Below, in pieces: positions 86 to 39,313 of a DNA stretch of 40,063 nucleotides. This stretch comes from a virus, in IMG/VR virus record IMGVR_UViG_3300020190_000137, positions 1 to 40,063 of that record, one strand, 5' to 3'. The position numbers and the translations under genes are program-made. How positions within the stretch are numbered: the first letter of the stretch is position 1; the number at the start of each line of letters is the position of its first letter. Below the pieces are notes generated by a model. It did no database searches. It was not told the DNA's origin and saw only the letters and a list, made by a program, of their open reading frames with translations.

Positions 86-736
86 TTAAAGATTTGAAAG
101 AAATTCGTTGAATAAATTCAACTTATGTTCTTCAAGTCTTTTTTGATCGACTAGTGTATTAATTCTTTTTTGAGTTTGAGTGGCAAGTTGTTCACGAAGA
201 ATACCACCTTCCCATACCCACTCTTTACCTTCCATAATTCCCTGAACAAATGCATCAGGGGCAGAAGGATCGGCAACGATATCAGCTGCAGTTGCAAGCA
301 TAAAATCTTCACCCACAATTTTATGACCTTCATTGGTCATCTTGAGTGATCCAACACCACGAGAAGAAACTCCAAGGCAAACTCCTTCTCCAATTAAAGA
401 ACTTGCGATCTTACCCATAGGAGTATCTAGAAGTTGTGCTTTACCTCTAAAATTATTTCCTTCACAAGTAAGAGAAATAATTTTATGAGAAACGCGATCT
501 AGATTTACAGTTGGACCATCGGGGTGTCCGAGTTCTCCAAGAGCACGACCTTTTGCGATAAAGTTTTCATCATATCTCTTTACCTCACGGGAAAGAGTTT
601 CCATAGGATACATTCTTCCATTACGGTTGCAAATATTTCCCTGAAGGAAAACACCTTCGATGTACATCTTTTTAGATGTACCTTTTCCTTCGGTGATAAA
701 CTTTACCTGTTGTACTTCTTCTGTGATGAGTTTCAT
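86..736 (-). CDS. 21: prohead core protein protease gp21
   Basis: Serine protease of the prohead core that digests scaffold proteins and trims capsid proteins during head maturation. Using the ATG at 736 the product is 216 aa, close to the 212 aa of T4 gp21. The catalytic set is visible: H71 in GELGHP, S124/S125 in GVSSRGVGS, and an aspartate at D152 in the ADIVADPSAPDAF stretch, aligning with GELNHP, GVSSRG and VGVDAV of T4 gp21. The frame is open to an upstream ATG at 799, but that would overlap the preceding 91-aa gene by 58 nt and add a Cys/Lys-rich extension unlike the family, so 736 is preferred. There is no clear Shine-Dalgarno sequence; an A-rich tract precedes the ATG. Three matches to the T4 cleavage rule (L/I)xE|(A/G) lie at E16, E117 and E169. 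Confidence 0.93.
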   Translation of the reverse strand: MKLITEEVQQVKFITEGKGTSKKMYIEGVFLQGNICNRNGRMYPMETLSREVKRYDENFIAKGRALGELGHPDGPTVNLDRVSHKIISLTCEGNNFRGKAQLLDTPMGKIASSLIGEGVCLGVSSRGVGSLKMTNEGHKIVGEDFMLATAADIVADPSAPDAFVQGIMEGKEWVWEGGILREQLATQTQKRINTLVDQKRLEEHKLNLFNEFLSNL

Positions 737-5830: not shown

Positions 5831-6058
5831 TTACCAATCTGGATATGACCAGTTAATTAAACTATCTTTCTTTTTATTTTTATAAATTCTATTTTTTGTG
5901 CATTCTTTACACTCATAAGAATATGCTGAAGGAAATGTTCCTCGATCTTTACGAGTTAAATAAAAATCATCTATTAAATTTTTTACCTCTCCACACACTC
6001 TACATTTTCTATCAAAAAATAATAGGTGTTCTATTTTTATCTGGTCATCTAAATCCAT
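5831..6058 (-). CDS. 75-aa zinc-knuckle protein
   Basis: Small protein with two CxxC pairs: C19-V-C22 region (CRVCG) and C50-x-x-C53 (CKEC), followed by a basic tail (KNRIYKNKKK). This layout matches the zinc-ribbon part of phage HNH/endonuclease VII-like proteins, with the FYLTRKDRG stretch between the pairs, but the His-Asn-His catalytic part is absent, so it is probably a DNA- or RNA-binding protein rather than a nuclease. Its ATG overlaps the gp17 stop (TAATG) and AGG lies just upstream, so it is translated with the terminase. Such a protein between genes 17 and 18 is, as I recall, usual in cyanophages. Confidence 0.75.
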   Translation of the reverse strand: MDLDDQIKIEHLLFFDRKCRVCGEVKNLIDDFYLTRKDRGTFPSAYSYECKECTKNRIYKNKKKDSLINWSYPDW

Positions 6059-7710
6059 TACCTATATTCCCACATATATGACCTGTCTCCATATTCATCT
6101 AAATGCCACCTATCACCATCGATATCGACAAAACTATGTTCATCAACACCATCTAAAATAAATCCAAATGGAGCCATATCTTGTTCAATTTGATTTTTCT
6201 GTTCCTCATAAATTCTTTTACGAACATCATTGTCCGTCATTTCTTTAAAGTAATCTTGAGCAACTAACCAGGAGAAAATAACAAGACACATCGCAAGGTC
6301 ATCATTACAACCCTCTTCAGCCTCAAATGAGTTATGACGCTGTGCAAATGTTGTTAATTCTGATATGATGTCATAATCAATAGTCAATAACTTATCATCT
6401 TCCATTAAAGTCTTTAAGTTAGAGCATCCTAACTTTTTAACTGCGGCAGTCATTCTCACACCGAGTTGAGATTTCTTTCCACTAAATCCAGAACCAACTA
6501 TTTGACCTGCTCGTCCTCTCATTGCACACATAAGAACATTATCATATTCTAGGTCAAAGTGAAGAATGTTTGCTACTTGATCTCCAATATCGTTAACTTC
6601 AATCAACAACCAAGCGTCATTGTATCCTTTAGCAACTTCGTATATAATACTGGGAAATAACATTGGTTTAATTTCATTATTTCGATATTTTGCTACAACT
6701 TTATATGGAAAGTTAGTAATATCAAAAACAATAAATGCTGAATAGTCATTACCCAATCCACGAGCAACATCAACTGTAATTAAATAATTATTTTCTTCCG
6801 TAGGATTTTCATATATGTCTAATCCTGCATTTTTTTTAATTGGATCTTCATAAACAAAGTTTCTTAACTTTGCTGAATTAATCAGTGTATTTGTAGAACC
6901 TAGAAACTCACACTCAAACTCAACTTTGAACTGTTGCTCACTTGTGTTAGCAATCGTCTGCTCCCTCCAGGTAGCGTCTCTACCAGGCACTTCGGACCAA
7001 TGCACATCAGTAGTTACATATTCGTTCTTGCCTCGTTCAGCGTCGTGCCACATACGGTAGAAGTGGTTCATACCTCGTGGCGTTGAAACAATAATTACCT
7101 TCGTGCTTTGTCCAGAAGAAATAGTGGGATAAACAGAGGCAAAGAAGTCATCAGCAATGTGATTTGGAATGAAAGCGAATTCGTCAAGAAAGATGACATT
7201 ATAGGATCCGCCTCGGACAGCAGATGACGAAGTAGAGTTAGATGAAATTTTGGATCCATTTTCTAATTCCAGAGATCCTTTGTTCCAAGATATAATACCT
7301 TGTTGCATCCACTTTGGTAAATTTTCATATGCAAGTTGCAATCTTCCAAGAAGATCTCTTGCTGTAGATGCTTTGTTTGCTAGAATAGCTATATTAACAT
7401 TATCGTTAAAAACTGCATAGTGTAACAAATATGATACAACAGTTGTAGATTTACCGGTTTGACGCGGCATCTTGCAAATATTAAATCTATTCTTGTGAAA
7501 ATTATTAATCAGTTTTTCTTGAAATGGATATAAATCAAATGGAACTAAACCATGATCCAGAGAAACAATTTTAATATAATTTTTAGAAAAATATACAGGG
7601 TCTTTCTTACACTTTAAAAACTCAATAATTTGATCTTCTGTAAATTCTATTGGAGTATTTGCTTTTTTGAGCAAAGGATTGCCCAAATAAACATCATTAG
7701 ACATATTCAT
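6058..7710 (-). CDS. 17: terminase large subunit gp17
   Basis: Packaging motor ATPase and headful nuclease. In the 550-aa frame the Walker A motif is PRQTGKST (82-89), Walker B with catalytic Glu is VIFLDEF (172-178), and the coupling motif is IIVSTPRG (206-213). The C-terminal RNase H-fold nuclease shows D314 (ITVDVARG), E371 (LLIEVND) and D470/D471 (GCNDDLAM), matching the D401/E458/D542 set of T4 gp17. T4 gp17 is 610 aa, so the family core is complete. The second ATG at 7704 (MSNDVYLG) is better spaced from AGAGAG (9 nt) than the first at 7710 (3 nt) and may be the true start. Confidence 0.97.
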   Translation of the reverse strand: MNMSNDVYLGNPLLKKANTPIEFTEDQIIEFLKCKKDPVYFSKNYIKIVSLDHGLVPFDLYPFQEKLINNFHKNRFNICKMPRQTGKSTTVVSYLLHYAVFNDNVNIAILANKASTARDLLGRLQLAYENLPKWMQQGIISWNKGSLELENGSKISSNSTSSSAVRGGSYNVIFLDEFAFIPNHIADDFFASVYPTISSGQSTKVIIVSTPRGMNHFYRMWHDAERGKNEYVTTDVHWSEVPGRDATWREQTIANTSEQQFKVEFECEFLGSTNTLINSAKLRNFVYEDPIKKNAGLDIYENPTEENNYLITVDVARGLGNDYSAFIVFDITNFPYKVVAKYRNNEIKPMLFPSIIYEVAKGYNDAWLLIEVNDIGDQVANILHFDLEYDNVLMCAMRGRAGQIVGSGFSGKKSQLGVRMTAAVKKLGCSNLKTLMEDDKLLTIDYDIISELTTFAQRHNSFEAEEGCNDDLAMCLVIFSWLVAQDYFKEMTDNDVRKRIYEEQKNQIEQDMAPFGFILDGVDEHSFVDIDGDRWHLDEYGDRSYMWEYR

Positions 7711-7746: not shown

Positions 7747-9327
7747 TTAGTTACAATTCCAGCGACGTAGAGCCTTATTAATTCTAGAATCTGGGTCTCT
7801 TGCAGTTTTTGCAGAGGTTAGTTTTGCTTTCATACCTTTCATACGACGGCAAAAGGACTTGCGACGATCAGCCCTTTTGCCAGTAGGCTTTTTTTCGGTT
7901 ACTGCGGTTTGAAGTTTTGAACCTGGATTTTCACGACGATAAGCATCCACTGTTGATTGACTTAATCCATCAACTCCATCTTTACGATTTTTTTCTTGCC
8001 AATCTTCCAGTAATTCTGAAATCTGTAGTTCAGATCTCCAATTAGAGAATTCTTCTTTCTTTACACAGTTTGGATATCTTTTTCCAAACATCGTCTTCAT
8101 TCCTTTTTTTTTGTAACCAGGCCAGCACTTTTCATCAAGTTGTTCATCTTTAGATCCACTTAGATTCAGTGGTTCTGGTTCAATAATATTTGTGGTTTCA
8201 ATATCAGTTGGAAAGAAATCATCTCTCCAATTAGAAAGCACATATGCCTCACTCTTATTACCCCAGTTAGCAGCACCTACCTTACGGCATTTCACCAGTG
8301 CTCCAGAGGCATATGCAGAGGGCCAGACACTATATCTTGACTTGACCTTATGATAACAGGCATCCTTTGTGCCACTACCTTTACCCTTTTTGTCTGATTC
8401 TTCGTTCATTTCTCCACTATCAACGTAATCTGCTGCTGTATCTATATAGTCAGCGGCTTTCGTGATTTTTGATTGCACCCATGCTTCTACGTTTCCTTCA
8501 CCCTTTGCCATTTTTTTTCTCAGTCTCTTGGCAGCACCAATTATAGTAGATAGTTCTGAACGAGCCATAGAATACTCGTGATCTCTTGTCTTTGACACTG
8601 CTGGGCACTCCTCATTTCCGTGACATGGGCAATATGTGCCCTTTTTAGTATTATTACAATTATTTTTTTCAATTAAATTATATTGTAAATCTTGTCCTAC
8701 TTTATGAGTTAAAATTATATTATTTGTTAATTCAAAATAATCAGATAAGTTTATATCTTCTTTACGTGTTTTTCTCTTCCGTCTTTTTTTCTTTGGTAAA
8801 TCAGTTGAGACATAAGTTGGTCGTGCAGCACCAGTTTTTGCCTGTTGTCCAGGATCTGCTTCCTTTTTTCTTCTTGCAGCAGATAGTCTTTCTGCCTTTG
8901 TCATACTTGCTCTCTTTGCAGAAGAGACACACTTTGGAGTTCCTTCTCCTGGTTCATCACTCGCACAAGTGCCACCAGTTACGACATTAACCCAACCACG
9001 TATACCCTCTTTTGATTTGGACTTACCAAACCAATCACGAAGACTTTCTTCATCGATTGAAGCACCATTCTCTTTACGAAGCATTCCTTCAGGATCTACC
9101 ATAAATCCAGCAGGAATTGGTTTACACTTTTTATCTGTATAGCAATAATAGTTTCCTGGTTTGCACCTATTTTTCTTTTTTTCTTCGTTCATTTCACTGA
9201 AAGGTGACTTTGATTTTGTTTCTTCACCCTTTGCTCTTTTTTTACGAGCAGCACAATGAGCTTTCTGAGAAAATCCGCTAGGATTATCACAGTTTATTGA
9301 TCTTTTATATTTGTCAGACCAACTCAT
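7747..9327 (-). CDS. 526-aa Cys-rich basic mosaic protein
   Basis: No enzyme fold is recognised. The protein looks assembled from separate short modules: residues 5-33 (INCDNPSGFSQKAHC region); 54-82 (CKPGNYYCYTDKKC); 95-178 (DWFGKS, GWVNVVTGGTCAS, then MTKAERLSAARRKK; DUF5872-like as I recall); a KKKRRKRKTRK tract at 179-189; 230-306 (CPCHGNEEC, EYSMARSELSTI, then EAWVQSKITKAADYIDTAAD); 322-357 (CYHKVKSRYSVWPSAYASG); 401-424 (CWPGYKKKGMKTMFGKRY); and 462-526 (YRRENPGSKLQTAV, KSFCRRMKGMK, ending RINKALRRWNC). I recall each block from separate phage proteins in cyanophages and large algal viruses. It lies between terminase genes 16 and 17, suggesting a packaging or DNA-binding virion role, which is inference. 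There is no good Shine-Dalgarno sequence. Confidence 0.85.
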   Translation of the reverse strand: MSWSDKYKRSINCDNPSGFSQKAHCAARKKRAKGEETKSKSPFSEMNEEKKKNRCKPGNYYCYTDKKCKPIPAGFMVDPEGMLRKENGASIDEESLRDWFGKSKSKEGIRGWVNVVTGGTCASDEPGEGTPKCVSSAKRASMTKAERLSAARRKKEADPGQQAKTGAARPTYVSTDLPKKKRRKRKTRKEDINLSDYFELTNNIILTHKVGQDLQYNLIEKNNCNNTKKGTYCPCHGNEECPAVSKTRDHEYSMARSELSTIIGAAKRLRKKMAKGEGNVEAWVQSKITKAADYIDTAADYVDSGEMNEESDKKGKGSGTKDACYHKVKSRYSVWPSAYASGALVKCRKVGAANWGNKSEAYVLSNWRDDFFPTDIETTNIIEPEPLNLSGSKDEQLDEKCWPGYKKKGMKTMFGKRYPNCVKKEEFSNWRSELQISELLEDWQEKNRKDGVDGLSQSTVDAYRRENPGSKLQTAVTEKKPTGKRADRRKSFCRRMKGMKAKLTSAKTARDPDSRINKALRRWNCN

Positions 9328-9339
9328 TGAAAAAAGATA

Positions 9340-9768
9340 TTACTCTTTACTATTTAGAAAACCTTGTTTGAGTAATTTTGATAATTCAGAAGTAGATCCT
9401 ACAAATACTGCATTATTAGTTACATTACCAGTTGATTGTTTCGTATTATTTTCTTCCATCTCTTTTAATTTTTTCTGTAAATCTAGTAATTTATCGGTGG
9501 TGTCTCCAACACTTTTTATAATTTGTCCTGCAACTTCATATGCTCTTGGACTATCACTTTCAGCAGCCAATTCCATAATTCCATTTAGAGCTTCTTGACC
9601 CTTTTCAATCAAGGAATATAAGTTGGCTCTTGTGTATTGATAATCTTTTTTTATATCGTTAGTTTTTAAATCTTCAGCATAAGGTTTTATATCAGAAGAA
9701 GTTTTTTCAACTTCTACAATACTACTTTCAATATTCAGAGATTGATCAAGATTATTATAATTTGGCAT
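9340..9768 (-). CDS. 16: terminase small subunit gp16
   Basis: Small terminase that recognises concatemeric DNA and stimulates gp17. The 142-aa protein (T4 gp16 is 164 aa) has the central helical region expected of the family, with DSPRAYEVAGQIIKSV (87-102) resembling DSPRHMEVFATLMGQM of T4, the coiled LLDLQKKLKEMEE segment, and the C-terminal NAVFVGSTSELSKLL that parallels NATVFMGSPTELMDEI. It follows gp15 by 8 nt and lies upstream of the 526-aa gene and gp17, keeping the T4 order 15-16-17 apart from that inserted gene. No convincing Shine-Dalgarno sequence is seen. Confidence 0.93.
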   Translation of the reverse strand: MPNYNNLDQSLNIESSIVEVEKTSSDIKPYAEDLKTNDIKKDYQYTRANLYSLIEKGQEALNGIMELAAESDSPRAYEVAGQIIKSVGDTTDKLLDLQKKLKEMEENNTKQSTGNVTNNAVFVGSTSELSKLLKQGFLNSKE

Positions 9769-13077: not shown

Positions 13078-14793
13078 TTAGAATGATCCACCATCTATTG
13101 TGATATTCTCAAGATTTCTAGTTGAACCAGTGCAGGTGATGAGTTGAGATTGACCCGCACAGTCATTAATGAAAATACTTTCGACTTCAATAGACGCATA
13201 TGCATTTGCAGCAACTGTTAATACACTACTAGCTTCTGTAACCTCATCAGCAAATACAATTCTTGATGCAGAGTCATCCCAGAATACAGCAGCTTTCCTA
13301 GCCGAACCACTAAAATAATGAAATAGAACACCAATATCAATGTTTAAATCAGATGTAGGTGCAACTAGAGATCCAGAGCTATTGATAAGACCAATCTCAA
13401 TTAGACTGTCTTCAACTTTTAATGTTTCAGTATTAACAATAGTTTGTGATCCCAAAACTGATAGGTTGCCAGTAACCGTGAGATTACTTGAAATACCTAC
13501 AGCACCAGTTCCATTAGTTATTGTAATTGCACTAGTGCCGTCACTTGCTTGAATATTAGGTGTTATGACCGTAGGAGCACTTAAAGAGGTCCCAACAACT
13601 ACTGCATTTGGAAGACCAACAGTTATGGTTTGACCTGATACTGCAGTTTCAATTTCGTTAGCAGTACCAGCAACAGTTAGTGTTTGTGATGTAGAAACGG
13701 AACCAGTACCACTATCACCTGCAAGAGAAGTTGTTACATCAACAGCATCAACATAAGCCTTAACTGCTGCTTGTGTTGGTAAATAATTATTGCTGTTTTC
13801 TGCAAGTGTGGTGCTCGTTGAAATACCAGTAATACCAATGCCAGAAGTTCCACTGAGAATTAAAGTGCCAGTAGTTGTGATACCAGAGATATTAAGACTT
13901 GAAGCACTTGCATTTCCCAAAACTGGAGTTACTAGTGTTGGAGTATTAGCGAATACAAGTGCTCCAGTTCCTGTTTCATCGCTAACTGCAGATGCAAGGT
14001 TTGCTGATGAAGGAGTTGCAAGGAATGTAGCGACGTTTGCACCAAGACCAGTGATATTTGCAAGAGCAAGATCACCACTAAAAGTTGTTGCAGTAACGAT
14101 ACCAGAGAAACTACCATTTCTCCATCTCTGAGAACCAGTACCGAAGTCATAGGTTGCATCAGTGTTTGGAATGATATTTGAGTTAACATCCGCAGCGAAT
14201 ACAACATTATCACTTGCTGCATCACCAAGAGTAATTGTACCACCTTCAAATGTGACTGCACCTACAAAGGTTGATATACCTGCAACATAAACATTACCAA
14301 CAACTGATAGTCCTGCACCAACAGTTACATTTTTATCTACTCCCAGACCTCCATCAATTTGTACCGCACCAGTATTGGGGTTACCTAAGGTATTATCAGT
14401 AGTGTCTGAAAATGTTGAAATTCCAATAAAAACAGGGTTAGCAGACCCACTTCCCCAACTTAAATTACCATTGCCATCATTTAGTAATACGGTATTAGAT
14501 CCGCCTTGAATAGCTGGAAAATAAAAGGTTACCGCTGCTCCCACTGATGCTGGTGCAGCGAGTGTAATAAAGTCTGTTCCCGCAGTTGATTCTACAAGAT
14601 TGATACCACTTCCTGCTGAAGCTGTTTCTCTAGTCCAATATCTATGAGATCCAAAGAATTTATTATTTGCTGATACGTTATCTAAACCAATATATAACTC
14701 ATATTTGTCAGTGGTAAAACCAGGCTCACCTGCTTTTAACGCTGGTAAATTACTAAAGGCACCTCTTTTAAACTGTAATACAGGAGTAGCCAT
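13078..14793 (-). CDS. fibre-like virion structural protein, 571 aa
   Basis: The N-terminus (LQFKRGAFSNLPALKAGEPG, then FTTDKYELYIG) is the short attachment domain shared by many phage fibre and receptor-binding proteins. The middle is Gly/Thr/Ser/Val-rich with fibre-type phrases such as NITGLGANVATFLATPSSAN and FANTPTLVTPVLGNAS, typical of triple-beta or repetitive shafts. Towards the end are SQTIVNTETLKVEDSLIEIG and a compact C-terminal domain with two cysteines (NDCAGQSQLITC), ending ENITIDGGSF. No intramolecular chaperone domain is visible. Probably a tail or neck fibre protein; receptor unknown. Gene order puts it between baseplate and neck genes. AATAAATA boxes lie 24-28 nt upstream. 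Confidence 0.82.
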   Translation of the reverse strand: MATPVLQFKRGAFSNLPALKAGEPGFTTDKYELYIGLDNVSANNKFFGSHRYWTRETASAGSGINLVESTAGTDFITLAAPASVGAAVTFYFPAIQGGSNTVLLNDGNGNLSWGSGSANPVFIGISTFSDTTDNTLGNPNTGAVQIDGGLGVDKNVTVGAGLSVVGNVYVAGISTFVGAVTFEGGTITLGDAASDNVVFAADVNSNIIPNTDATYDFGTGSQRWRNGSFSGIVTATTFSGDLALANITGLGANVATFLATPSSANLASAVSDETGTGALVFANTPTLVTPVLGNASASSLNISGITTTGTLILSGTSGIGITGISTSTTLAENSNNYLPTQAAVKAYVDAVDVTTSLAGDSGTGSVSTSQTLTVAGTANEIETAVSGQTITVGLPNAVVVGTSLSAPTVITPNIQASDGTSAITITNGTGAVGISSNLTVTGNLSVLGSQTIVNTETLKVEDSLIEIGLINSSGSLVAPTSDLNIDIGVLFHYFSGSARKAAVFWDDSASRIVFADEVTEASSVLTVAANAYASIEVESIFINDCAGQSQLITCTGSTRNLENITIDGGSF

Positions 14794-14816
14794 CTTTTAA
14801 ATTTTACCTTTTATCT

Positions 14817-24843: not shown

Positions 24844-27800
24844 CTACCCAAGATCTTTTTTAAGAGCTCCACTGTCTCTAAGACCATATTCCCTTCTTTG
24901 AATAGTTGGGAATGTTGTTAGACCTGCATCAACTCTCAGCCCAGTTACCCCAATAGAAATTGGTGATGATGCTCTGGTGAATCCAGAAAGTCTTCCCCAA
25001 GAGAATCTACCACAGATATTTGTGGGTGATCCTGTAGTTCCCAATCCAACAACACTGGTCGTTGAAAGAATATTAGAATCAATTTGAGCATTGGAACCAT
25101 TAGTTGTAATTGCGTTTACAATATAAACATTATCTAAAAATGTTGTCCCAATACCAACTATTGAAGTATTTAAAGTATTAATAGATGTAACTCCAGAACC
25201 AACTCCAGTATTATAAATGTAAATTGGATATCCAATTAAAAGTTCAGTAAAAGGATTTGCTGCTGCTTCTGGAATATTCACAAAGAATCTCAATGCTAGT
25301 GGATTTGAACCAGTTCCTGTGGTTGTTGTAATTCCGGTAATAATTCCAGCAAATCCTTGAACTGTGGTAATCTTAGAAATATTTTCATATATTATATTTT
25401 GTATTGGTGCAAGAACATTTGGTATTATTGAGGTTGTATAACCAAAACCAGGATTTATTATTGAAGTAGAAGTAATTGTTCCACCAGCACCAATTGTTGC
25501 TGTTGCTGTTGCTGTTGTACCTATACCAACACCAATAGTCTTTGGCGGAGCTATGGATAAAGTAATCGTTGCACCACTATATCCCGAACCGCCAGTATTA
25601 ATCGTTAACCCACTAATAGTTCCACCAGCAGAAACTGTTGCAGTAAAAGATGCTCCTACTGGATCAGTATTGATTCCAACAAGAGTATTAACACCAACAA
25701 TTATTGCACCAAAGTTTATTATCTCAATATTAGTTAGAGCATCATTTTCTTCATAATTAAAGAATTGAGCATCATCTACAAAAATTTCAGTATCTGAAAT
25801 AGATAGATTTCCAATTACTTTTGCAGTTGGATAAACTAAACTTTCAATAGAATCTCTTGACTTATGAATATATTCATTTGCAATAATTTTATCTACTTTT
25901 TGTTTAGTCCAATTAATTGGTTTAAAGTTGATTGAATCAATTCCAATATCTGTATAAATGTCTGTTTCAACTTTATTTGCAGAACGTATATTTACTACTG
26001 TTCTATTTTTTTGTTCTATTGTTCCAATAATAAAATCATTCTTATTAAGTTTTAAAGTGTCTCCAGATTTTACAGTTTCAGTGACATTTACCTGCCTACT
26101 ATCTTCATTTCTTGTTCCTCTGTAGAAGAATATATCTACTTTATCATTGATAGTTGGAGCTATTGTGAATATAAAAGAAGATCCCCCGTCAAATTCATAA
26201 TTTGCACCTGGATTTTGAATTACTCCATTTACAAAAATTAAGAGTAAGGTATTAAGATCAATTTCTACAGACTCTGCATTATTCTCATCTTTCTCAAAAC
26301 TTAACAAATCTCCATTATAAACTAGTGGAAATCTAACTCTGGATCCATTTTGAAGATCTTTTATTGAATCAATGTAATCAAGTTCTCCAAACTGCCAGGC
26401 AGAGAATGAATCGTTGAAGATTTCTAAAACTTCAAAAGTGCAGTCTATGAGTGGAGATGAAAGATTCTTATCAGTTACTAACCCAACTGGTTTAAATACA
26501 TCACCTTTTTTGAATCCATAACCAGGTCTAGAAATTTTAAATGATTTTACTTCAAATAATGTGGAACCTATTCCTGTAGTAGAACTTGCTCCAACTTCGA
26601 GATTAAGTAGTAATCCATCGCCTGTGGTTGTGGTTGTTCCTATACCAAGTCTAGAAACTCCAATCACTGAAAGATTTTCATAATTTGGTTCCGAAACAAA
26701 GATTTTTGGATTAACGTATCCGGTTCCACCAGAAACTACATTAAAAGATAATGTCCCTCCAGCACCAACTGTAGCAGTGATATTAGCAGCAGTCCCCGAA
26801 TGACTAGAATCAGTAATACCAATGGAAACAACACCACGATATCCAGATCCATTAATGTCTGTTGTTCCCAGTCCAACTGATGTAACAGCACCACCAGACA
26901 CAACTGCAGTTACAGAGGCACCAACCAACGGAGCAAATCCTAGTCCAGGTGTAGATGCAAGAGAAACAATAACTCCCCCTCTTGGTAATTGATTTTGATT
27001 TACATCAAATGGAGAAATATAAACATCCTGACCAATTGCCGTTGTTGTTATTCCTGTAAATACTACACTAGATATTCCAGAATTTTGAATAAATCTATAA
27101 TTATTGTTAGCATTATTAGATGTCGTTGGTGTTTGGAATACATTATTGATAAACAATAAACCACTACCAGTTTCAATTCCAGTGATATTTGAACCTTGAA
27201 CAGAAAGTTTATAAGTTTGTCCTATACCTGTAAAGTCATTTGAAATATTGTCATATATTAAATTCTTCGTGTAGTCTTTACGCAAATAAACTCGTCCACC
27301 AAAAGTTGATTTTACATATGGAATATTAGAATTATCAACTGTCTCACTTAAATTTCCTTTTGGAGCTTCGGTGAAGTGAATTCGATTATTGACAATGTTG
27401 AATGAACCAGTGTGTACTCTGATTTCAGTTCCATCGGTGTGGGTGGTTGCTAAAGTTCCAACAAAACCTCTTTTAGATTGAATAAGATTAAATGTGCCTA
27501 TTCCCGTGATTGGTCCTGTTGAAGTTGTTCCTAGTCCTACAGAAATAACTTCAATAAACTCATCATCTATTTTTAATATATTTTTTGGCACTATTGAAGA
27601 AATACCAGATATTGCAAAGTGTGTTGAAATTGCACTAACTTGTCCATTATTGTTTATCAGAGTATAATTTATTGGTGTGTATGATATTGGACTTTGAACT
27701 ATTCCATCAATAACAATAACTGATTTTTCAAGTTTTTTACGCATTTCAAGTTGATGTGCATTTCCAGTTGCAGTATTAGTAAATGTAAACGCTGCTCCAA

Positions 27801-30800
27801 CAACATTGCTAGTTCCTTTAGAACCAGAGAGTCTAAATGTACTATTGTCAATTTTAATTGCATAGACAGTTTCTGGTAAAATATTTGTAGAAATTCCAGT
27901 TGTATATGTTTGTCTTATAGAATTACTTGTAGATGCATTTGAAATTGTAATAGCAGTATTTACATTTGTTGCATAGAAAACTCCATTTGTAGTTGAAGCT
28001 GCAGATATTGATGCTGTAATAGAATTAATTCCAATATTTGTTATAGTTCCTAGAGATGTTCCATTTCCAGAGAAAATTCCTGCATTAATTGTAAATAATG
28101 TGGTATTTCCAATTCCAGTTATGACAGTCGAACCACCACCAACTACATTTCCGATAAAGTAAGTATAGTTAGTTCCTATTCCGGTAACAGTTGTTCCAGC
28201 AGCTATTGAAGGTCCTATTATGGTTTGATTTATTGCGATACCTGTTGATGTACTTATTCCGGTTATTGTAGAAAATCCAACAATAAAATCTCCTAAAAAT
28301 ACTGCTCCACCAACTATAGTAGTGCCTATTCCAACAGAAGTTGCAGATACACCAGAAAACGTGGATCCTGGAGTGTATATTAATTCTTCATTGTTTTGGA
28401 AAAAATGATTTGCTATAGTAAAAGTTCCTGTTTGTGGATTTAAAACTGTAGTGTCTGAAGGATTAAAAGTTTTTTCAAAAATAGGAATGCCTTTGTGAGT
28501 TAAATCAAAATTCGTAACATTACTTCTGTTTCCATTAATTCCATTAAATTTTGAAAGATTTAATTGTTCTCTGAAAGTTCCATATGTTAAAGACTGTGGT
28601 ATATTAAGACTATCACTTTGTGTTTGAATGATTTCATTATAAGTTTGAATTAAAATACTGGTTAAAATATTATCATCTGGATAAAACTTCAGAACAAAAT
28701 TATCACCAATTAATTCTGATGAGAAAGTTCCTATTCCAGTAGTGTTTTGACCAGAAAGAAACGGATATTGAACAACATAAGCATCTGTTCCATCGTGTAT
28801 TGATAAAATTTGATGTAATGCAGATGTATTTCCGTAACTAACTCGTGCAATTGTTTTAATTGTAGTGACATCATTTTTAGAAACACTAACTAAAGTTGAT
28901 ATACCAGAAGAAATTTCATAGTTACTTTGTAGTTTTGCAGTGTTTTGGGTTCCTGCTGGTTGTCCAGAAGCAGTGAATGTATAAGTGCCAACTCCAACAG
29001 ATGTTGTTCCAAATCCAACAACTTTACTTCTAACTAAAACTGAGTTGTTTTCAGTACTATTTGTAAAATCTAAAGATAAAACTCCAGAACTTATATTTGC
29101 ACTAAAGGACCCTATGAATCCCCCAGTCGAGAATCCTATCTTTGGTGTATTATCGACATAGTATTGTGAAATATTTGTATCTGTACCATCATGATCGACA
29201 TATAATTCAAAATAATTTCTCTTTTCAGTAGTGGTGTTTATAATTTCAGCGTTAACAAACAATGACTTAATTGTCCCAATTCCGGAAGAAATAATCGTGC
29301 TTGTAGAAGCAACTCCAACAATATTATTAGAACCTGTCAAATTAATAAATCCTATTGTTTGAGTTCCTACACCTGCTAAAGATCCATTAAAATTATTTTT
29401 TAAAATTTTAATATCATAATTTGAATTATAAGGATCTAAAGGATTAAATCTAAGAGATAATGATCCACTGTCAGTTATATTGGCAAAGACATCTCCCAAA
29501 TTGGAATTATATAATGATGCTTTCTCAATTGTGATGATGTCATTAGTCCCCGATGGTAATGTTATTACCTCAGTCACCTGCCTTTGAGTATTAAATGGAT
29601 TGACAATTTGAATTAAAAATCTGTTGTAACCATCATTTAAATTATATTTAAGTAAATCTACATAGTTATCTACATCCTGATTTGTATTATTAAATTGACT
29701 ACTAATGTCATCAATTGTTAGAACTCTATTTGATATACATTTAATATAATCGGTTAGTTTTTTATTTTTTAGTTGAATGAATTTTGATTTATTTGTTAAG
29801 GTATCAACTTCAATTCCAAAATCAAAATTATTGATTGTGTCAACTCTAATTTCGCTAATTAGATTAATTAAGGATTGTCTAATAGTGTTATTTGTCACTC
29901 CAAATCCTACTCTCTTTTTTTTAATAATTTCAGTATCTGCAAAATTCTTAAGACCAGTAGTATGTAAAAGACTATTGACTGGTTCTTTTAAATCTTCAAA
30001 TTCTATAGAACTTTTTACTGTATAAGAAAGATTTTGATAATAATCATTATCTGAAATAATTTGAGTATCATCATTTAATTTTCCGACATCATTAGACCAT
30101 CCACTATCTTTTCTTAAAGAGTAATCAAGTTCAAAAAATGCTCTATTATTTTGAATACTTTTAATGGTTGCTATAGTTCCAGAATCTCTACCTAAGATAA
30201 TATCATTTTCTTTTAATTCATACGTTCCATACACTTTTATTGTATTTTCTAAAATTTTTGTTATGATTAAATCTCTTCCAATATAACTTGATCCCTCACG
30301 AGTCAGAAGTTTTTCTTCAAGAGCAAAGTTTCGTGGAGATTGGGTAACTTTAAATATTGGATAATTTGATTTTTTAATTATTGATGCATATCCATTTTGT
30401 GTTGTTGCTATACCAAGAGCATTAGCACTAATATCAGTTGCTATCCCAACAAGACTAAATGTTACTTGTGCTGGATTACCATTTGTATAATTTGATACTG
30501 TAAAGAATTGGAATTTATGATCTTTAGAATTGAATCCTTTACCAGTATTTCCAATGTTTTGTATACCTTCAACAAATACTTCTTCACCAATTGTAAACAC
30601 ATTGGTTGTAAATCCAACTAGTGGAGTTGCTAAAACACATGTAACTATTCCAGATGAAGATGTAAGACAACTATTAATTCCTATTCCATTACTATTGTTT
30701 ATTGCATAAATTTCATTTGTTATTTCGGATAGTCCTGCTGGAGCAGTAACAATCGTTACAGAAGAAATTGAAGTTCCACTTAGTGAAGGTTTTAATACAC

Positions 30801-33800
30801 CATTATCATAAATTGTTCCAGTTTCTGGATTTACTATGACTAAATCCGGAGTAGAAGTGTAGTTGGAACCACCATATGTTACTTCAACATCTGTAACTTC
30901 ATTTCTGTTAGTTATAATAATCAATGGAGAGATGAATACTTCTGGACTTAAAGTTCTATCCACAGAAAAATCAAATCCAGGATCATCAATAGTTAATTGG
31001 TTAATTCTACCAATAACTGAAGACTGAGGAATTATATCTGCATTAATTCCGTTTGTAGAAGTTATACTTTTAAATTTTGGAAGTTTTTTATATGAGATTC
31101 CTCCAGAAAGAATTTTTAATTTAGCAATTCCACCTTCTTCAGTAGATGAGGTTGTGGAATATTCCAAAGTATCTGTGTTATTTTGAGTATATGTATAAAG
31201 TTCTGGTAGTTTATTGAGTTGAACTTGGAATGAGGTACTGCCAATACCAACTCCAGAAATTGCAAATGAATCTGAATACAGACTATCAACAAATAATATT
31301 TCAGAATAATTTACAACATCTTTATCAGATGTACTAATAAATCCGGTTTTTTCTAGAGAGTAATAAAGTTTTGGTGGTAAAGAATTATTGTAAGTTAAAG
31401 TTAGCGATGCATTGGTGGAAATTCCAACTGTGCCAACACCAATCACACTAAAGGTAGAAGTAGTTCCTGTTGACACAAACTCATTATTAAAATCTTCATC
31501 ATAGAATAATTTTAGTTTATATCCACTGAGTGATGAGTCTGAAACATCAAAAACTAGGTCGTTATTTCTAACTAATGAAATTTGAGGATTAATTTTTGAA
31601 ATTGAATTTAAATTTCCACCAGTTGAAGCAAGACTAACAATTACAGGTGGTTTTGCTACAGAATCGTTATAAGTTTCTGCTAGATTAAAATTATCATCAT
31701 CAATTCTGTAAATATAATATGGTCCAGTTTGCAATCCTGAGATTATTGAATTGGTGGAATTGTAAAATACTTTGTCTCCAGTTTCAAAATTATGAGAATT
31801 AATTTGAATTTGATTTGTACTAGTATTTACTCCAATAGAAGTAAATCCGATTGGATCGATTAATATTTTATCATGGTTAGAATTATATATAACTTTAATT
31901 GAGGTTGCTGTTGTTCCAAGTCCAACAGATCTATTTGATTTTAGAGATAATTTTATAATATCACCAACATTCATTCCATGTGCAGTTGAAACTGCAACTG
32001 TAGAAGTTGCTTTTTGAACTTTTGCTGTTATTTGATTAAAATTAGATTTAATAAAATATTGATAATTTAGTGAATCTTGATTTGGGGTAAATCCAACAAA
32101 ATATAATCCATTTGTACTAGTTGTTAATCCAACTTGAGTTGTAAGACCAATATAATTTGGAGATTTATTGATTACATAGAAGTTTTGTGTTGTTCCTGTT
32201 TGAGGTACATTGAATTGATCCAAGACAAAATTATTTCCACTTGTTGACACTGCAATGGTATTTCCACCCGCTGGTATAACAAGTGTTACAAGTTGATTTG
32301 TTTTAAATGGATGACCTGGTAAATAAATACTTTGTGATGGAATTGATACTAAACTATTTTTTTCTCCAATTTTGTAAGTCGTTGTTGATGTCAATCCAGT
32401 ATTTGTGGCAATACCAATTGCCTGTGTAGGATTGAAATATACAATATCGTTAAGTTTTGATTCAAAATATGGAGTTTTAAGTTCAATAGTAAAACTATCA
32501 GGTTTAGTGAAAATTGGTGTTGATATTGTATGAGCAAATCCAGTCTGTCCTCTTAAAATTCTTATAACTTTATTTTCAGGAAATAAATTGAGAACTTTAA
32601 CTAGTTCAGTTGCTCCAATTCCAAGTGTGGAACCCGCAGAAACATTACTAAAATTGGTAGTGACATATATATCAGTCACAAATCCAACTGCTGCATTTGA
32701 TGGAATTTGTTGAATCAGATATGAAGTTTCTGTTGATATTCCAATTAAATGTGAATTAGTTAATCCAAAAACAAATTTAGATGCTCTAGAAATAATTACC
32801 TTATCTTCATTATTAAGACCATGTGGTAAAGTACCATGTGGTAAAGTACTATGAATTGATACCTGCTCAGAATTTTTCCAAATAACAGTTGTTGAAGGAA
32901 ATGTTTGAACTGTGGTATTGATGCTACTAATTTTTTTACCTTTTACAGAGGAAACTACTACACTTAAACCTGTTCCATCCGTATCCTTGTCATCAAATAC
33001 TGCAATATCTCCAATCTTATAACCTTCACCGGATTGATTGATTATTAAATTATCAACTGGTCCTCTCTTTACAGATTCAATAGTTGCACTTTGAGTAATA
33101 ATTTCATTTGGTTCTAAAATAAAATCATTACTTGAATTTAAATCATAAACTTTATATGGGAATGTGTTTCTAATTAGATTTGAATTATTGAAATCAAAAC
33201 TCTGATTAATATTTTGATTTATTAAAAGTGAGCGATAGGAGTTTCCAATAAAATATGGGAAGATTGAATTTTTATTAGTATTGGAAATAGTTGCAAAGTA
33301 AGCATAAACTCCATTTGGAAATTCTGGAGTTTTAGTAAACCTTCCATTATATTGATCTAAATCTCCAGAATTATTGAAGAGATAATCCTCAACAAAAAAT
33401 CCTGCTGCAAATTCACTAGGTCTGTCTATTACATTGTTAGAGTTTAAAATATATCCAGGATTTAAATATTTTAATGATGAATTTAAATTATTTGGATCTG
33501 AGATTGATGTTGGTCCATAAATTGGATTTCCATCATATGCCCATCCAATTATTGGAGAATGAACAGTTCCAGTGTCATTTGAATTTACGTTTTGTTGGTT
33601 ACTATAATAACCAAGTAAATTATATCCTAGTCCAGGAACTCCTACATTATTTGAAAGAATTTCCTCCCCATGTCTTGCATAGTTATTGACAGTAAGAGAT
33701 CTAACATCAGGTTCAAATATTGCCCCTAGTCCTGGAACTGTAGCATAAACAAAAGTATTTTTCTCAATATATCCTAATCCAGAATTAATAATGATAACAT

Positions 33801-36800
33801 CAGTAACTTTACCATTAGTAACTACAGATCTTAATTTAGCACCTACACCATCTCCTTCAACTATTAAATCTGGTTCAGAAGTATATTTACTTCCACTAAA
33901 AGTAACTTGAACATCAATAATTCTACCGTTTGAAACAATTGGTTTAAACTCTGCTCCAGTTCCTTTTGCAATATTAATATTTGGTCTTTTATGTAGATTT
34001 AAAATCTTTGATCCATATCCGCTTCCTTTTTCATAAAGATAAGTATCAATAATTTTTCCTCTAAGATAAGGTGTAGCAACTATTGTTCCAGTTTGATTAT
34101 TTACAAAAGAAACATTAATAGTTAATTCAATATTTGGATAAGAAAATACCTGATATCCTGATCCTTTTGTTGGTAAATTTATATAATCTCTTCTAGTATA
34201 ATTTGTTTTATTTGTTCCTCCTATACCAGCATCAGATAATCTAAAAGAATCATTATCTACTTTAAGAATATAATAATGATTTGTTGTTGAAGTTATCCCC
34301 GTAGAAGTCGTTAATCCTGAGATAGCAACCGGAATAGTGGTTCCTACACCAACAGCAGTAGTGTAAATAACTTTATCACCATCGACAAAACCATGATTTG
34401 AAAAATTAACAGTTGAATTCTGAGTTGAAATTCCAGATGGAGTTACTTTTAGTGAACGATGTTGATATCCACTACCAGGATCAAGAACTTTGATTGATCT
34501 TAAAGTATTTTGTGCATTATAAAGTTTAAATTTATGAATTCCTGATTTTTGTGCAGTGGTTAAACCAACTGTATTAATTCCACTGTTTAAATCAGAAAGA
34601 TTTGCATAAAGTTTAATTGATGATATTCCCACAACTTGAGCATAATATACTGTACCTTTTACTAAAGTTCCACCATTTAACTTTGATACATCTGTATTGT
34701 TTGCAGATCCAAGAGAGGTTGCAATTCCAACAGGATCATTACCGTTATTATCATAAACTAGAGCCGTTCCAGATACAATTTTAGGATTTTTTGAAAACAT
34801 AATTGTTTCATCATTTGAATTGATACCAAATGATCCACCAGTTAATTCACGTTGTCTTGCATCAAATTCAATTTCACGTTGTCTCATCTCTACAATTGGT
34901 TTAAGAACTGCTCCAGAACCGTTTCCTCCAGAAATTGTAACTGAAGAAACATCTGCAATATCAAAATCTTGTGGATCGACAAATACTTTTTCTACAGATC
35001 CACTTATAACTGGACTTACAAGTGCTGTTGTTCCAGAACTAACGATTGGGTCGGTTACTATTAAAACTGGCGGATTTATTATGTCGTATCCAGTTCCACC
35101 ACTATAAAGTTTTACTTTCTCTAATGGACCATAGTAAATTTTATCAGTAGATTTATAATTTTGGATTTCAACTCCATTAATCAATATTCCTGTGGTTCCA
35201 GGGACAGTTTTTTGATTTTTACCAGTCTTAATATTTTGATTAGACGGGAATTTTTTTAGTGATTTTTGTGGATAAATCCTATCTTCTTTTTGTGAGAATA
35301 ATGTAAAAGTCTGCTTTGTGCCAGATGCATTTCCAAGAGCAAATTCTACAAAAATATTATCATCAATTAATGTTCTTGATTGATATAATTTAATTTTATT
35401 TTTATTATCTCCAGGAGATGGAGTCAATACTTTTACAAAATAGTTACCTGTTTCAAGTCCAACTAAAACTCTCCCTCCAGAATAATAAATTTCATCACCT
35501 GTTATGAATGGAACATCTTCAGTTCCATCAAATGCAATTGTTTGGTATTTTTGAGTTAAAGTATTAAAATCTTTTAAATTATTTTGAGATACCGAATTGA
35601 TTTCGGATTTAATAACTGTTTTAGTTATTTGATAAGAAGGTAATGAATTTGATGCAACATAGAAATATTGCTCACTATCATTATAAAAATTTTGTATATC
35701 AGATGTTACTACATTATTTCCGTAAAATATAGGAGTATTGGAACTAGTTGCAGTATTTAATTTTCTTCTAATTCTATAATTTGTTGTATCTAATTCTGGT
35801 TGTATAAATGAATCATCAACTTTGAATCCACCAGAATTTGGATCTCCAAGATTGTTTAAAGTAACTTCTCTTGTAGTTTGATTAATGTTTGCAACAATGG
35901 CACCAGAATATGCAACTGTTTCTGTGGATCCCTGTAATATATCAACAGTATCTCCAACTTTAAGATTCGATTTATCAGTTTCAGATTCTAATGTGAAAAC
36001 TGAGGTATTGATTCTCTTTACTTCAAAAGAAGAGCTGGTATTATAAACTAATGTATTTGCAAATAATTCTTTGTATGTTTTGTTTTGGGTAGGATTTAAA
36101 ATTATTTCACCAACATGTTTAACATAAATTCTTTCACCCTCATCAGTCAGGTAGATATCAGTAATTGGTTTAAATCCAGATAAAACACCGCCAATTCTAA
36201 ATTTTACTATTTTGGTTAAATCTCCATTTTCATATCCATAAAAGAAATCATCATTACGAATATCATCTCTAGAATTGATAATATTATTAATTCCAGTACA
36301 ACTTAAAAATTGATTTATAGTTTTATCTGCATACGAAATTTTATTATTTCCAGAAATTAAAGTTCCAGTAACACCAAATCCAACAGTAGAATCTACCGTA
36401 ATGACTGAAGAACCAACGGATACTTTTCCAATCACTCTTGTTTTTGGTTGAACATTAAAAATTCCATCTATAAATTCTTTATCATCATACCCAAGAAATA
36501 ATCCAAGTTTGTAATAGCTTCTTGTACCTGTCCTTGTAAAAATTTCTACCTCAGACACTGATGCCTTTGTATTTGGATCCGTGGATTTTATGATAGTTTG
36601 TCCAACTAAATTATTTGGTTCTCCAGAAATTTGTTCGACAATTATAATCTCTCTTCTTAAAAACTTTGCAGTTGAAGGTTTCGTTAGGTAATTTTCTAGA
36701 TCTATTACTTTTGGATCAATTCCATAAAGAACATTGAACAGAATTCTAAATGATTCTTCAGTTCCTTTTGCTTGATAAAAACTTCTTGCCTCTTTAATAA

Positions 36801-37377: not shown

Positions 37378-37378
37378 C

Positions 37379-39313
37379 TTATACCCTCTTTAATTCTCCG
37401 TTTAAGTAACTAGAAGTTATTTTATACCCAACTCCAGATATCTGTTCTCCAGAAGATATTGTATCCTTCACCATATTTATCTTACTCTTGCTAACATCAA
37501 AATACAAATAAAGATCTTTTAGACCAATCACATCATTAGATTCTGGATATGCTTGTACTTCAATTATATTTTCACTAATATCAGTTGATTTAATATTAAC
37601 TGGATTAATCATTATTTCTCCAGTGTTATAATTAACTGTTCCAGCAGATTTAACTACGACTACATATTTTTCTTTACCATCAGGTGTTTCTTTTACAATT
37701 GAAATAATACCTTTTCCTGTTCCGTCTAGATCGCCTGTAGAATTTTTATTAGGAGCATCTGTAAAATAAACGGTTTCTGTCTCACCTGCAATAGTAAAAC
37801 CAGTGCTCTTAATATTAAATCCAATTGGTTTTATATTAAATTGATTTCCAAAACATAATTCATATGTTGTAACCTGATCAATCAATACTTTAAGATTTCT
37901 TCTTATAATCACTCTTGTGATATTCGAAGTAATTGCATTATCAACGCTGTCTATGATTTGATTTATTTTACTATATTTGAATCTACCTCCAAATTTATTA
38001 ATATTGGAAGAAGAATAAGTCGTTAGGGCATTAATAATATTTGTCTTTAATTGGTTAACACTAGAGGTCTGAGAATTATTGTAGTAAATTCCAGCATCAA
38101 TCTCAACATAAAGTATTTTCAAGTCTACAATTTGCTGATTAATTCCTGCTAAAGAATATTGTTTTAGTTTGGATAAAATTTGCTCTTTATCAAAATCAGA
38201 AACATATTCACCATTTTTTGGTTTAATACTGATAATAACATTGCCAAATTGTGGTGGATCTAATTCTTCACCACCAACAACAGATACAGACTCAGTGCCT
38301 GAATAAATTGACTGAATAATTGTCTCATAGTCACGAGTTGTAACTGCACGATATTGTGAAGAATATAGGCGCGGAGCAAAGTATTTGATTGAATCGGTTG
38401 ATTCAATATCAGATCCATTTCTTGCTGAAGAAACAGTTGTGATTGTAACTAAATTTGTAGGAGTTACAATATTATTCAGGGAATCTCTAACTCTTCCTGA
38501 ATAAGAAAAATTAGTTCCTCCATTTCCATTTTTACCATTAGTTACAATATAAGTAACTGTAATAAGACTTCCATGTTCTAATTTCTTACCAAAATATCCA
38601 TCACCAAATAAAAGTTCATATTTTTCATCTTGAATTTCTTGTAACAGATATGTTTCTGAACTCTTATTTACATTTAAAATATTATCTACCTGCGCGTATT
38701 CTCTGCCTATAGCATTGGGATTATTGACATCTGCTGCTATAGTAACTTTAACAACAATTGTTGATGTATCAATTGAAGTATTATCAAGAACAAACCTCTG
38801 ATTTACAGATCCATCAACAGTAAAAGTTTTCCTAAGAAAAGTACCTTCATAAACTTCAATATTTTCAAATGAAGCAATTTTAGTATTTGTATTGACTGTG
38901 GTTGTAATACTTTCTGGAATTGAAAAAATATAGTTTGTAGTTAGGTCTCCAGTCCCAACACAGACTAGTCCTGCATCGAGTGTAAGAGACGGTGTAGTCG
39001 ATGCATTAGGAACTTGTACATCGAATTTTACAACCGCCTTGGAGGCGGTTTTAGAACGAGGTACATAACCAATGTTTCTTGCCAATGAAACAACATTTTC
39101 TCTTAGAGTTGCTGAATCTAAGAAAGATTCATTTGCAACCATATTTGTGTTAAATGCCGTAATGTATGTGTTATATGCTAACACATCAATTAAGACAGAA
39201 AAATTAGATCCCTCAAAGTCAAAATCCGTGAAATTAGAATTTGCACGAATGTAGTCTTTTATGGAAGTTTTGATCTGATCAAAATCTAGATTTGTAAACT
39301 TAGTAAAAGGCAT
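37379..39313 (-). CDS. 6: baseplate wedge protein gp6
   Basis: Wedge subunit forming the inner iris of the baseplate, related to the baseplate J proteins of other contractile tails. At 644 aa it equals T4 gp6 (660 aa). Diagnostic is FDFEGSNFSVLIDVLAYNTY (31-50), matching YDFEGSRLNVLCDLLAYNT of T4, then LRENVVSLARNIGYVPRSKT; the mid region has LLFGDGYFGKKLEHGSLITV and APRLYSSQYRAVTTRDYE, also typical. It starts 1 nt after the gp25 stop and ends 1 nt before the gp7 ATG. A compact GC-rich stem-loop lies in the early coding region. Confidence 0.96.
   Translation of the reverse strand: MPFTKFTNLDFDQIKTSIKDYIRANSNFTDFDFEGSNFSVLIDVLAYNTYITAFNTNMVANESFLDSATLRENVVSLARNIGYVPRSKTASKAVVKFDVQVPNASTTPSLTLDAGLVCVGTGDLTTNYIFSIPESITTTVNTNTKIASFENIEVYEGTFLRKTFTVDGSVNQRFVLDNTSIDTSTIVVKVTIAADVNNPNAIGREYAQVDNILNVNKSSETYLLQEIQDEKYELLFGDGYFGKKLEHGSLITVTYIVTNGKNGNGGTNFSYSGRVRDSLNNIVTPTNLVTITTVSSARNGSDIESTDSIKYFAPRLYSSQYRAVTTRDYETIIQSIYSGTESVSVVGGEELDPPQFGNVIISIKPKNGEYVSDFDKEQILSKLKQYSLAGINQQIVDLKILYVEIDAGIYYNNSQTSSVNQLKTNIINALTTYSSSNINKFGGRFKYSKINQIIDSVDNAITSNITRVIIRRNLKVLIDQVTTYELCFGNQFNIKPIGFNIKSTGFTIAGETETVYFTDAPNKNSTGDLDGTGKGIISIVKETPDGKEKYVVVVKSAGTVNYNTGEIMINPVNIKSTDISENIIEVQAYPESNDVIGLKDLYLYFDVSKSKINMVKDTISSGEQISGVGYKITSSYLNGELKRV
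39032..39050. other. GC-rich stem-loop within gp6 coding region
   Basis: Perfect seven-base-pair stem AACCGCC/GGCGGTT with the loop TTGGA, followed on the plus strand by two further T residues (TTTT in total) then AG. It lies in codons 88-94 of gp6 (SKTASKAV). On the sense (minus) strand the stem is followed by GTAAAA, not a T-run, so it does not look like a terminator for the gp6 transcript; on the plus strand it resembles a weak terminator that could stop antisense transcription. Confidence 0.45.

Follow-up and report, generated by a model that had tools for sequence, protein, structure and literature searches.

The open reading frame at positions 7747–9327 (minus strand) of the window, the whole 40,063-nucleotide stretch of viral DNA analysed here, codes for a 526-aa protein (ATG start; the coordinates include the stop) composed of a string of small modules; among related phages, such modules are gained, lost, and reordered, with module H (DUF6321) fixed at the C-terminus. 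The protein is probably packed along with the DNA, as a cargo whose modules are rapidly reshuffled. The best explanation, held with reasonable rather than high confidence, is that it is an internal protein of the virion head built of separately exchangeable units, like the internal proteins of phage T4 fused into one chain.

The gene is situated between those of the two terminase subunits, its upstream neighbour gp16 (small subunit, PF11053/phrog_445; 9340–9768, minus strand) and its downstream neighbour gp17 (large subunit, Terminase_6N and Terminase_6C; 6058–7710, minus strand). Also within the window are gp18, gp19, gp20, and gp21, the last coding for the prohead protease (Peptidase_S77; 89–736, minus strand). 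The phage is T4-like, and its host, to go by those of the relatives, is probably cyanobacterial. The modular protein has 17 cysteines, a net charge of +38, and a pI of 9.55, which bears out the sequence-only reading of a basic, Cys-rich product between the two terminase genes and adds the strand, minus, that this reading had not given. Pfam recognises the C-terminus alone, as DUF6321 (PF19846; residues 451–523, E = 3e-14, 53.7 bits against a gathering cut-off of 28.5). phrog_727 matches the protein with E = 9e-105, and within PHROGs it belongs to this and several further families, all of unknown function; searches with it found no match in NCBIfam and no sequence match to the whole protein in the PDB. 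Relatives are found in 510 phage records, chiefly of Synechococcus and Prochlorococcus phages, and nearly all are less than 60% identical to the window protein; this number, together with the phrog_727 and DUF6321 E-values, indicates that the family is not a product of chance.

Elsewhere in the window, a small Cys-rich ORF (75 aa, CRVCG..CKEC; 5831–6058, minus strand) lies between gp17 and gp18, a place taken in S-SCSM1 by an ORF annotated as endonuclease VII. An open frame of ca. 4180 codons (24847–37389, minus strand) probably codes for a giant baseplate-region protein; the baseplate gene region of S-SCSM1 contains a 12.4-kb gene annotated as coding for a virion structural protein. The 572-residue open frame at 13081–14796 (minus strand), whose N-terminus matches the N-terminal domain of the major tropism determinant (PF18454, E = 5e-9), may code for a receptor-binding protein.

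The window copy of the protein has the module order A-B-C-D-E-F-G-H, all on the minus strand. Module A (aa 1–38; 9214–9327) contains SDKYKRSINCDNPSGFSQKAHC and two cysteines, and is followed by a linker (9170–9195) coding for ..EMNEE.. and holding the word GAAATGAACGA. Module B (aa 52–91; 9055–9174) has three cysteines, and module C (aa 93–189; 8761–9051) reads DWFGKSKSK..GWVNVVTGGTCAS..PKC..DPGQQ, has two cysteines, and ends in the KKKRRKRKTRK tract (8761–8793). Module D (aa 220–243; 8599–8670), with the pattern Cn[hn]T..CP.HG...C, is a possible small zinc knuckle, while module E (aa 247–306; 8410–8589), with AWVQSKITKAADYID, is helical and found in 24 phage records only. The E-F linker (8387–8412) has the EMNEE-coding repeat again, with 85% identity between the two copies over 26 nt, and leads to module F (aa 312–361; 8245–8394; KDACYHKVKSRYSVWPSAYASGALVKCRK, two cysteines), found in 365 phage records. 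Module G (aa 396–428; 8044–8142) contains KCWPGYKKKGMKTMFGKRYPNCVKK and two cysteines, and the constant C-terminal module H (aa 441–526; 7750–8007), i.e., DUF6321, likewise has two. Every block quoted in the sequence-only reading, which had counted at least seven, is present in these eight modules. Zinc-knuckle-like Cys/His spacing is putatively recognised in modules D, B, and L, with the patterns of D (C..H..C.H...C) and L (C..C...C) compatible with zinc spacing; A, C, F, G, and H have only two cysteines apiece. Most modules are basic and the linkers are mildly acidic across the family (−4 per 100 aa); in the window copy modules E and D are neutral. An AlphaFold2 model of the whole protein (pLDDT 43 with 29 sequences) was uninformative.

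The variability of the architecture was determined from 80 related loci of IMG/VR, for which module profiles were built and then mapped onto all ORFs. They comprise 17 module types of about 22–105 aa, mostly without a known fold, and 49 module orders among proteins of at least four modules, a count that takes in three profiles of linker type and some ORFs truncated where contigs end. The order of the window protein is one of them; others are A-B-D-C-..., B-C-A-F-E-G-H, B-A-E-C-F-G-H, C-E-F-B-D-G-H, and C-E-G-F-H. Further modules, I to R, fill gaps in the relatives, J being DUF5661 and R being DUF192. After two further scans seeded with the S-SM1 and Syn9 proteins, the enlarged set comprised 107 module compositions, some of them single modules or fragments, and H was the last module in 175 of the 176 proteins containing it. 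Copies of modules A, E, F, H, I, M, and Q are also found apart from the long ORF. The number of phage records differs widely between modules (H 505, F 365, E 24, A 16), these counts being lower bounds because of the low-complexity filter of tblastn. Module F is mostly more than 90% identical among the loci compared. Only DUF6321, DUF5661, and DUF192 pass the Pfam cut-offs, none of the other modules scanned doing so, and no effector or enzyme domain was recognised. The proposal that the protein is a mosaic of blocks with independent lives is thereby upheld: block-wise mapping revealed relatives with reordered or fewer modules, and the alternative that had been set against it, one fixed full-length protein in all relatives, does not hold in view of the 49 orders and 107 compositions. 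A scan of genome contigs gave one relative, on a contig that is assigned to a Neomarinimicrobiota MAG but resembles a T4-like phage. There (L178, 2184–3491 and 3917–7557), modules F, G-B-C, and E have an ORF each, and module Q forms one protein with a nucleotidyltransferase such as occurs in virions of cyanophages.

Traces of module movement can be read in the nucleotide sequence. Four relatives (L002, L004, L006, and L027) have module I between A and B, which the window protein does not; in L002 and L004 the insert is flanked on each side by GAAATGAACGA, of which the window has one copy at a clean junction, so that the insertion is bounded by an 11-nt direct repeat within the linker. The EMNEE-coding word of the A-B linker is found again in the E-F linker, and the linker peptides EPEGE, IIKPE, and KGKGS are each shared by several junction types. 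The E-F part of L054 matches that of the window with 95.8% identity, as against 81–82% for G-H and gp17, as expected of exchange within the gene. In two loci (L006 and L005) the F-G gap holds an insert of ca. 210 aa with a Gly/Ala-rich hydrophobic stretch, NGDRGS repeats, and two elements resembling capsid targeting sequences, SYEEFIEEG and SFGEFIADS.

Module H is near-universal in marine cyanophage records, with one copy per genome. In the T7-like phage P-SCSP1a a stand-alone DUF6321 protein of 84 aa is encoded directly after the major capsid gene (L093, 11364–11618), and H stands alone in pelagiphages too; since these phages are not T4-like, H cannot act solely via the T4 pathway. An AlphaFold2 model of H alone (pLDDT 71.5) is all-helical. 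No match to H was found in the PDB by sequence or fold, and its confident named matches in BFVD are all DUF6321 proteins, encoded by phages or by an uncultured virus. The papers on P-SCSP1u and P-SSP7 contain nothing on DUF6321.

Presence in the virion is supported for one relative by annotation and paper together: gp029 of S-SCSM1, encoded after a tail-fibre gene, is annotated as a virion protein, and 45 virion proteins of this phage were identified by mass spectrometry (PMC9602691), a number close to, but not exactly, the about 47 counted by us in the record. Homologues in S-B43, S-P4, and RN05-S are annotated as structural proteins. Among the options offered by the sequence-only reading, a virion protein, possibly injected, has come out as the best supported, owing to this S-SCSM1 homologue and to the predicted targeting sequences of the stand-alone modules.

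The internal proteins of T4 have a capsid targeting sequence in common at their N-termini. Its residues 4 and 7 serve targeting and its residues 8 and 10 processing; it is trimmed by gp21, which cuts after L/I-x-E, and Asp at residue 10 leaves targeting intact but blocks trimming (PMC9026906). The T4 proteins start with MKTFKEF (IPI) and MKTYQEF (IPII and IPIII), and in an 18-kb T4 stretch the pattern MK[ST][FY]xxF marks only the starts of these three. Among 534 kb of the relatives' loci there are 18 distinct starts of this pattern, all in short ORFs beside the long gene and all belonging to module A (11) or module M (7). With a weight matrix derived from 12 module-free proteins, the N-terminal signal was found in 52 of 254 module ORFs and in 9 of 9433 others; the Fisher P value of this comparison overstates significance, because the sequences counted are related, and the spread of the signal over seven module types is a sounder argument. 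The tagged ORFs are stand-alone A, M, H, and I, and short E-H, G-H, and Q-B-H forms (e.g., MKSFQQFISE|S). Two of the nine matches without modules are nucleotidyltransferase (NMNAT-like) proteins, both in the training set of the matrix, one of which belongs to the S-SCSM1 virion set. Near gp23, other short ORFs (L124, L126, L138, L152, L160, L161, and L170) start with a T4-type targeting sequence (8 matches against 0.02 expected) and are further candidate head cargoes.

The trimming site is unevenly distributed among the tagged ORFs. In each of the 24 M ORFs, [LIM]xE occupies residues 8–10, whereas a gp21 site follows the targeting sequence in only one of 24 A ORFs and in none of the H, E-H, G-H, and Q-B-H ORFs. 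Module A, in relatives also a separate ORF of 50–51 aa with the N-terminal sequence MKTFKQFQED, usually reads MKTFKQFQED or -EE without a trimming site, residue 10 often being Asp. Within long ORFs 18 distinct internal sites were found against one in reversed sequences, some of them just before module G (SFQDFQEKA in S-SM1, TFQQFQEKC in Syn9). Most long ORFs have no capsid targeting sequence, and in the window protein, which starts with MSWSDKYKR (relatives with a separate A start with MKTFKQFQEDWTNKYKK), the matrix scan recognised none, N-terminal or internal. The tag is unnecessary for the long form, since gp029 belongs to the S-SCSM1 virion set and has no N-terminal tag; the relatives and this one annotated virion set together suggest that the long form is targeted. 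SNWR-type linkers, considered as degenerate targeting sequences, were rejected because they score below the matrix threshold.

If the protein is head cargo, its long form would be taken up by the prohead core, packaged together with the DNA, and enter the cell along with it, where the modules would act early, most likely against host defences or for host take-over. By analogy with the T4 internal proteins, early action on the host, probably against defences, is likely for a cargo that is modular and patchily distributed with conserved modules; the T4 proteins are injected and inhibit type IV restriction enzymes, a different one for each of IPI, IPII, and IPIII (PMC12373910, PMC3012670). The gp21 gene inside the window counts in favour of the head-cargo reading, and the occurrence of H in phages that are not T4-like and the missing tag of the window copy count against it. 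It is conceivable, if somewhat short of probable, that these proteins form a new class of injected cargo: one cassette gene per marine T4-like phage, in which mini-modules are fused, inserted, and reordered through short linker repeats, several of them being individually targeted elsewhere, to give phage-specific early anti-defence or take-over sets with DUF6321 as the constant C-terminal anchor.

Neutralisation of the charge of packaged DNA is a serious rival to an early host-directed role. The protein would then be a structural, DNA-condensing head component, a tolerant bead-on-a-string chain whose shuffling is neutral drift rather than the making of an effector repertoire, an account to which a small but real chance is given. 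It agrees with the net charge of +38, with most modules carrying about +7 to +18 per 100 aa between slightly acidic linkers, with the near-universal single copy of H, and with the finding that lysines of the T4 internal proteins contact DNA phosphates (PMC3012670). However, some modules, E and DUF192 (R, −12 per 100 aa) for example, have a slight or marked acidic character, and the sharp conservation of modules such as F argues for specific partners and not for charge alone.

The protein could also be a polyprotein cut by gp21 at the module junctions, which would free separate small internal peptides in the head. Cyanophage major capsid proteins, whose sequences were read, retain L-x-E at the expected processing place; each of the six [LI]xE sites of the window protein falls at a junction, although module interiors make up 64% of its length; and at the G-H junction all 16 distinct sequences have a site, where 5.2 would be expected. 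Yet over 56 junction types of the family the value for junctions with a site is 17.3, as against 18.4 for the reversed control and 12.3 for the shuffled one, many junctions, A-B, D-E, and E-F among them, have no [LI]xE site, and the motif is not significantly depleted inside modules. Since the mean share of junctions with a site equals that of the reversed triplet, general cleavage into separate modules is not supported and was rejected, with the G-H junction as the exception, and processing of this kind is considered improbable.

That the protein is an accessory of the tail or baseplate, or contaminates virion preparations, is very improbable: virion proteomes give no location and the S-SCSM1 gene comes after a tail-fibre gene, but the stand-alone modules bear capsid targeting sequences and DUF6321 alone adjoins the major capsid gene in P-SCSP1a. 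The packaging accessory proposed earlier, working with the flanking terminase subunits, is hardly credible, because the position between gp16 and gp17, shared by the window and many relatives, is not that of the P-SSM4 gene, genes of carbon metabolism come between it and gp17 in Syn9 and S-SM1, variable genes of unrelated kinds accumulate in the gp16-gp17 gap, a hot spot (PMC3037559), H stands alone in a T7-like phage and in pelagiphages, and the protein is, by annotation, kept in S-SCSM1 virions.

By analogy, the proposed head-cargo protein may work like the T4 internal proteins and the polyvalent proteins, a proven member of neither group. Its likeness to IPI, IPII, and IPIII comprises the MK[ST][FY]xxF start of stand-alone module forms, with a gp21-type site after it in M, and a mostly basic, hypervariable product encoded at a variable locus; unlike in T4, many cargoes are fused and shuffled in one chain, the long ORF is mostly without an N-terminal tag, and no similarity is seen beyond the targeting sequence. 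DarA and Ddr of phage P1 are head-associated and linked to defence against restriction; they are not known to form shuffled strings of mini-modules. With several distinct domains per chain and a variable architecture, the proteins resemble the polyvalent proteins that phages and conjugative elements encode, which are likewise chains of multiple domains in variable sets and for which, in phages, packaging into the capsid and injection are predicted; those differ in including peptidases, kinases, and methylases, as against small modules here, and the words cyanophage, DUF5661, and DUF192 are absent from the main text of the paper describing them (PMC5512222).

The gene itself is already known as a catalogue entry, since phrog_727, T4-GC119 (comprising SSM1_115 of S-SM1 and PSSM4_160 of P-SSM4), and the DUF6321 cyanophage proteins are the same gene with H as its DUF6321, listed as a single hypothetical protein with no assigned function, and the gap between gp16 and gp17 has already been recognised as a hot spot (PMC3037559). 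In the literature searched on DUF6321, T4-GC119, and cyanophage capsid targeting, no description was found of the shuffling of modules or of the targeting sequences. About 500 sequenced phage records, mostly of marine cyanophages, contain the gene or at any rate its DUF6321 module, and the gene has no known function. If it codes for shuffled, injected head cargo, it would show how marine T4-like phages bring proteins into Synechococcus and Prochlorococcus cells right as infection begins, would supply a list of small modules for testing against host defences, and would provide a natural case of domain shuffling with insertion points readable at the nucleotide level.
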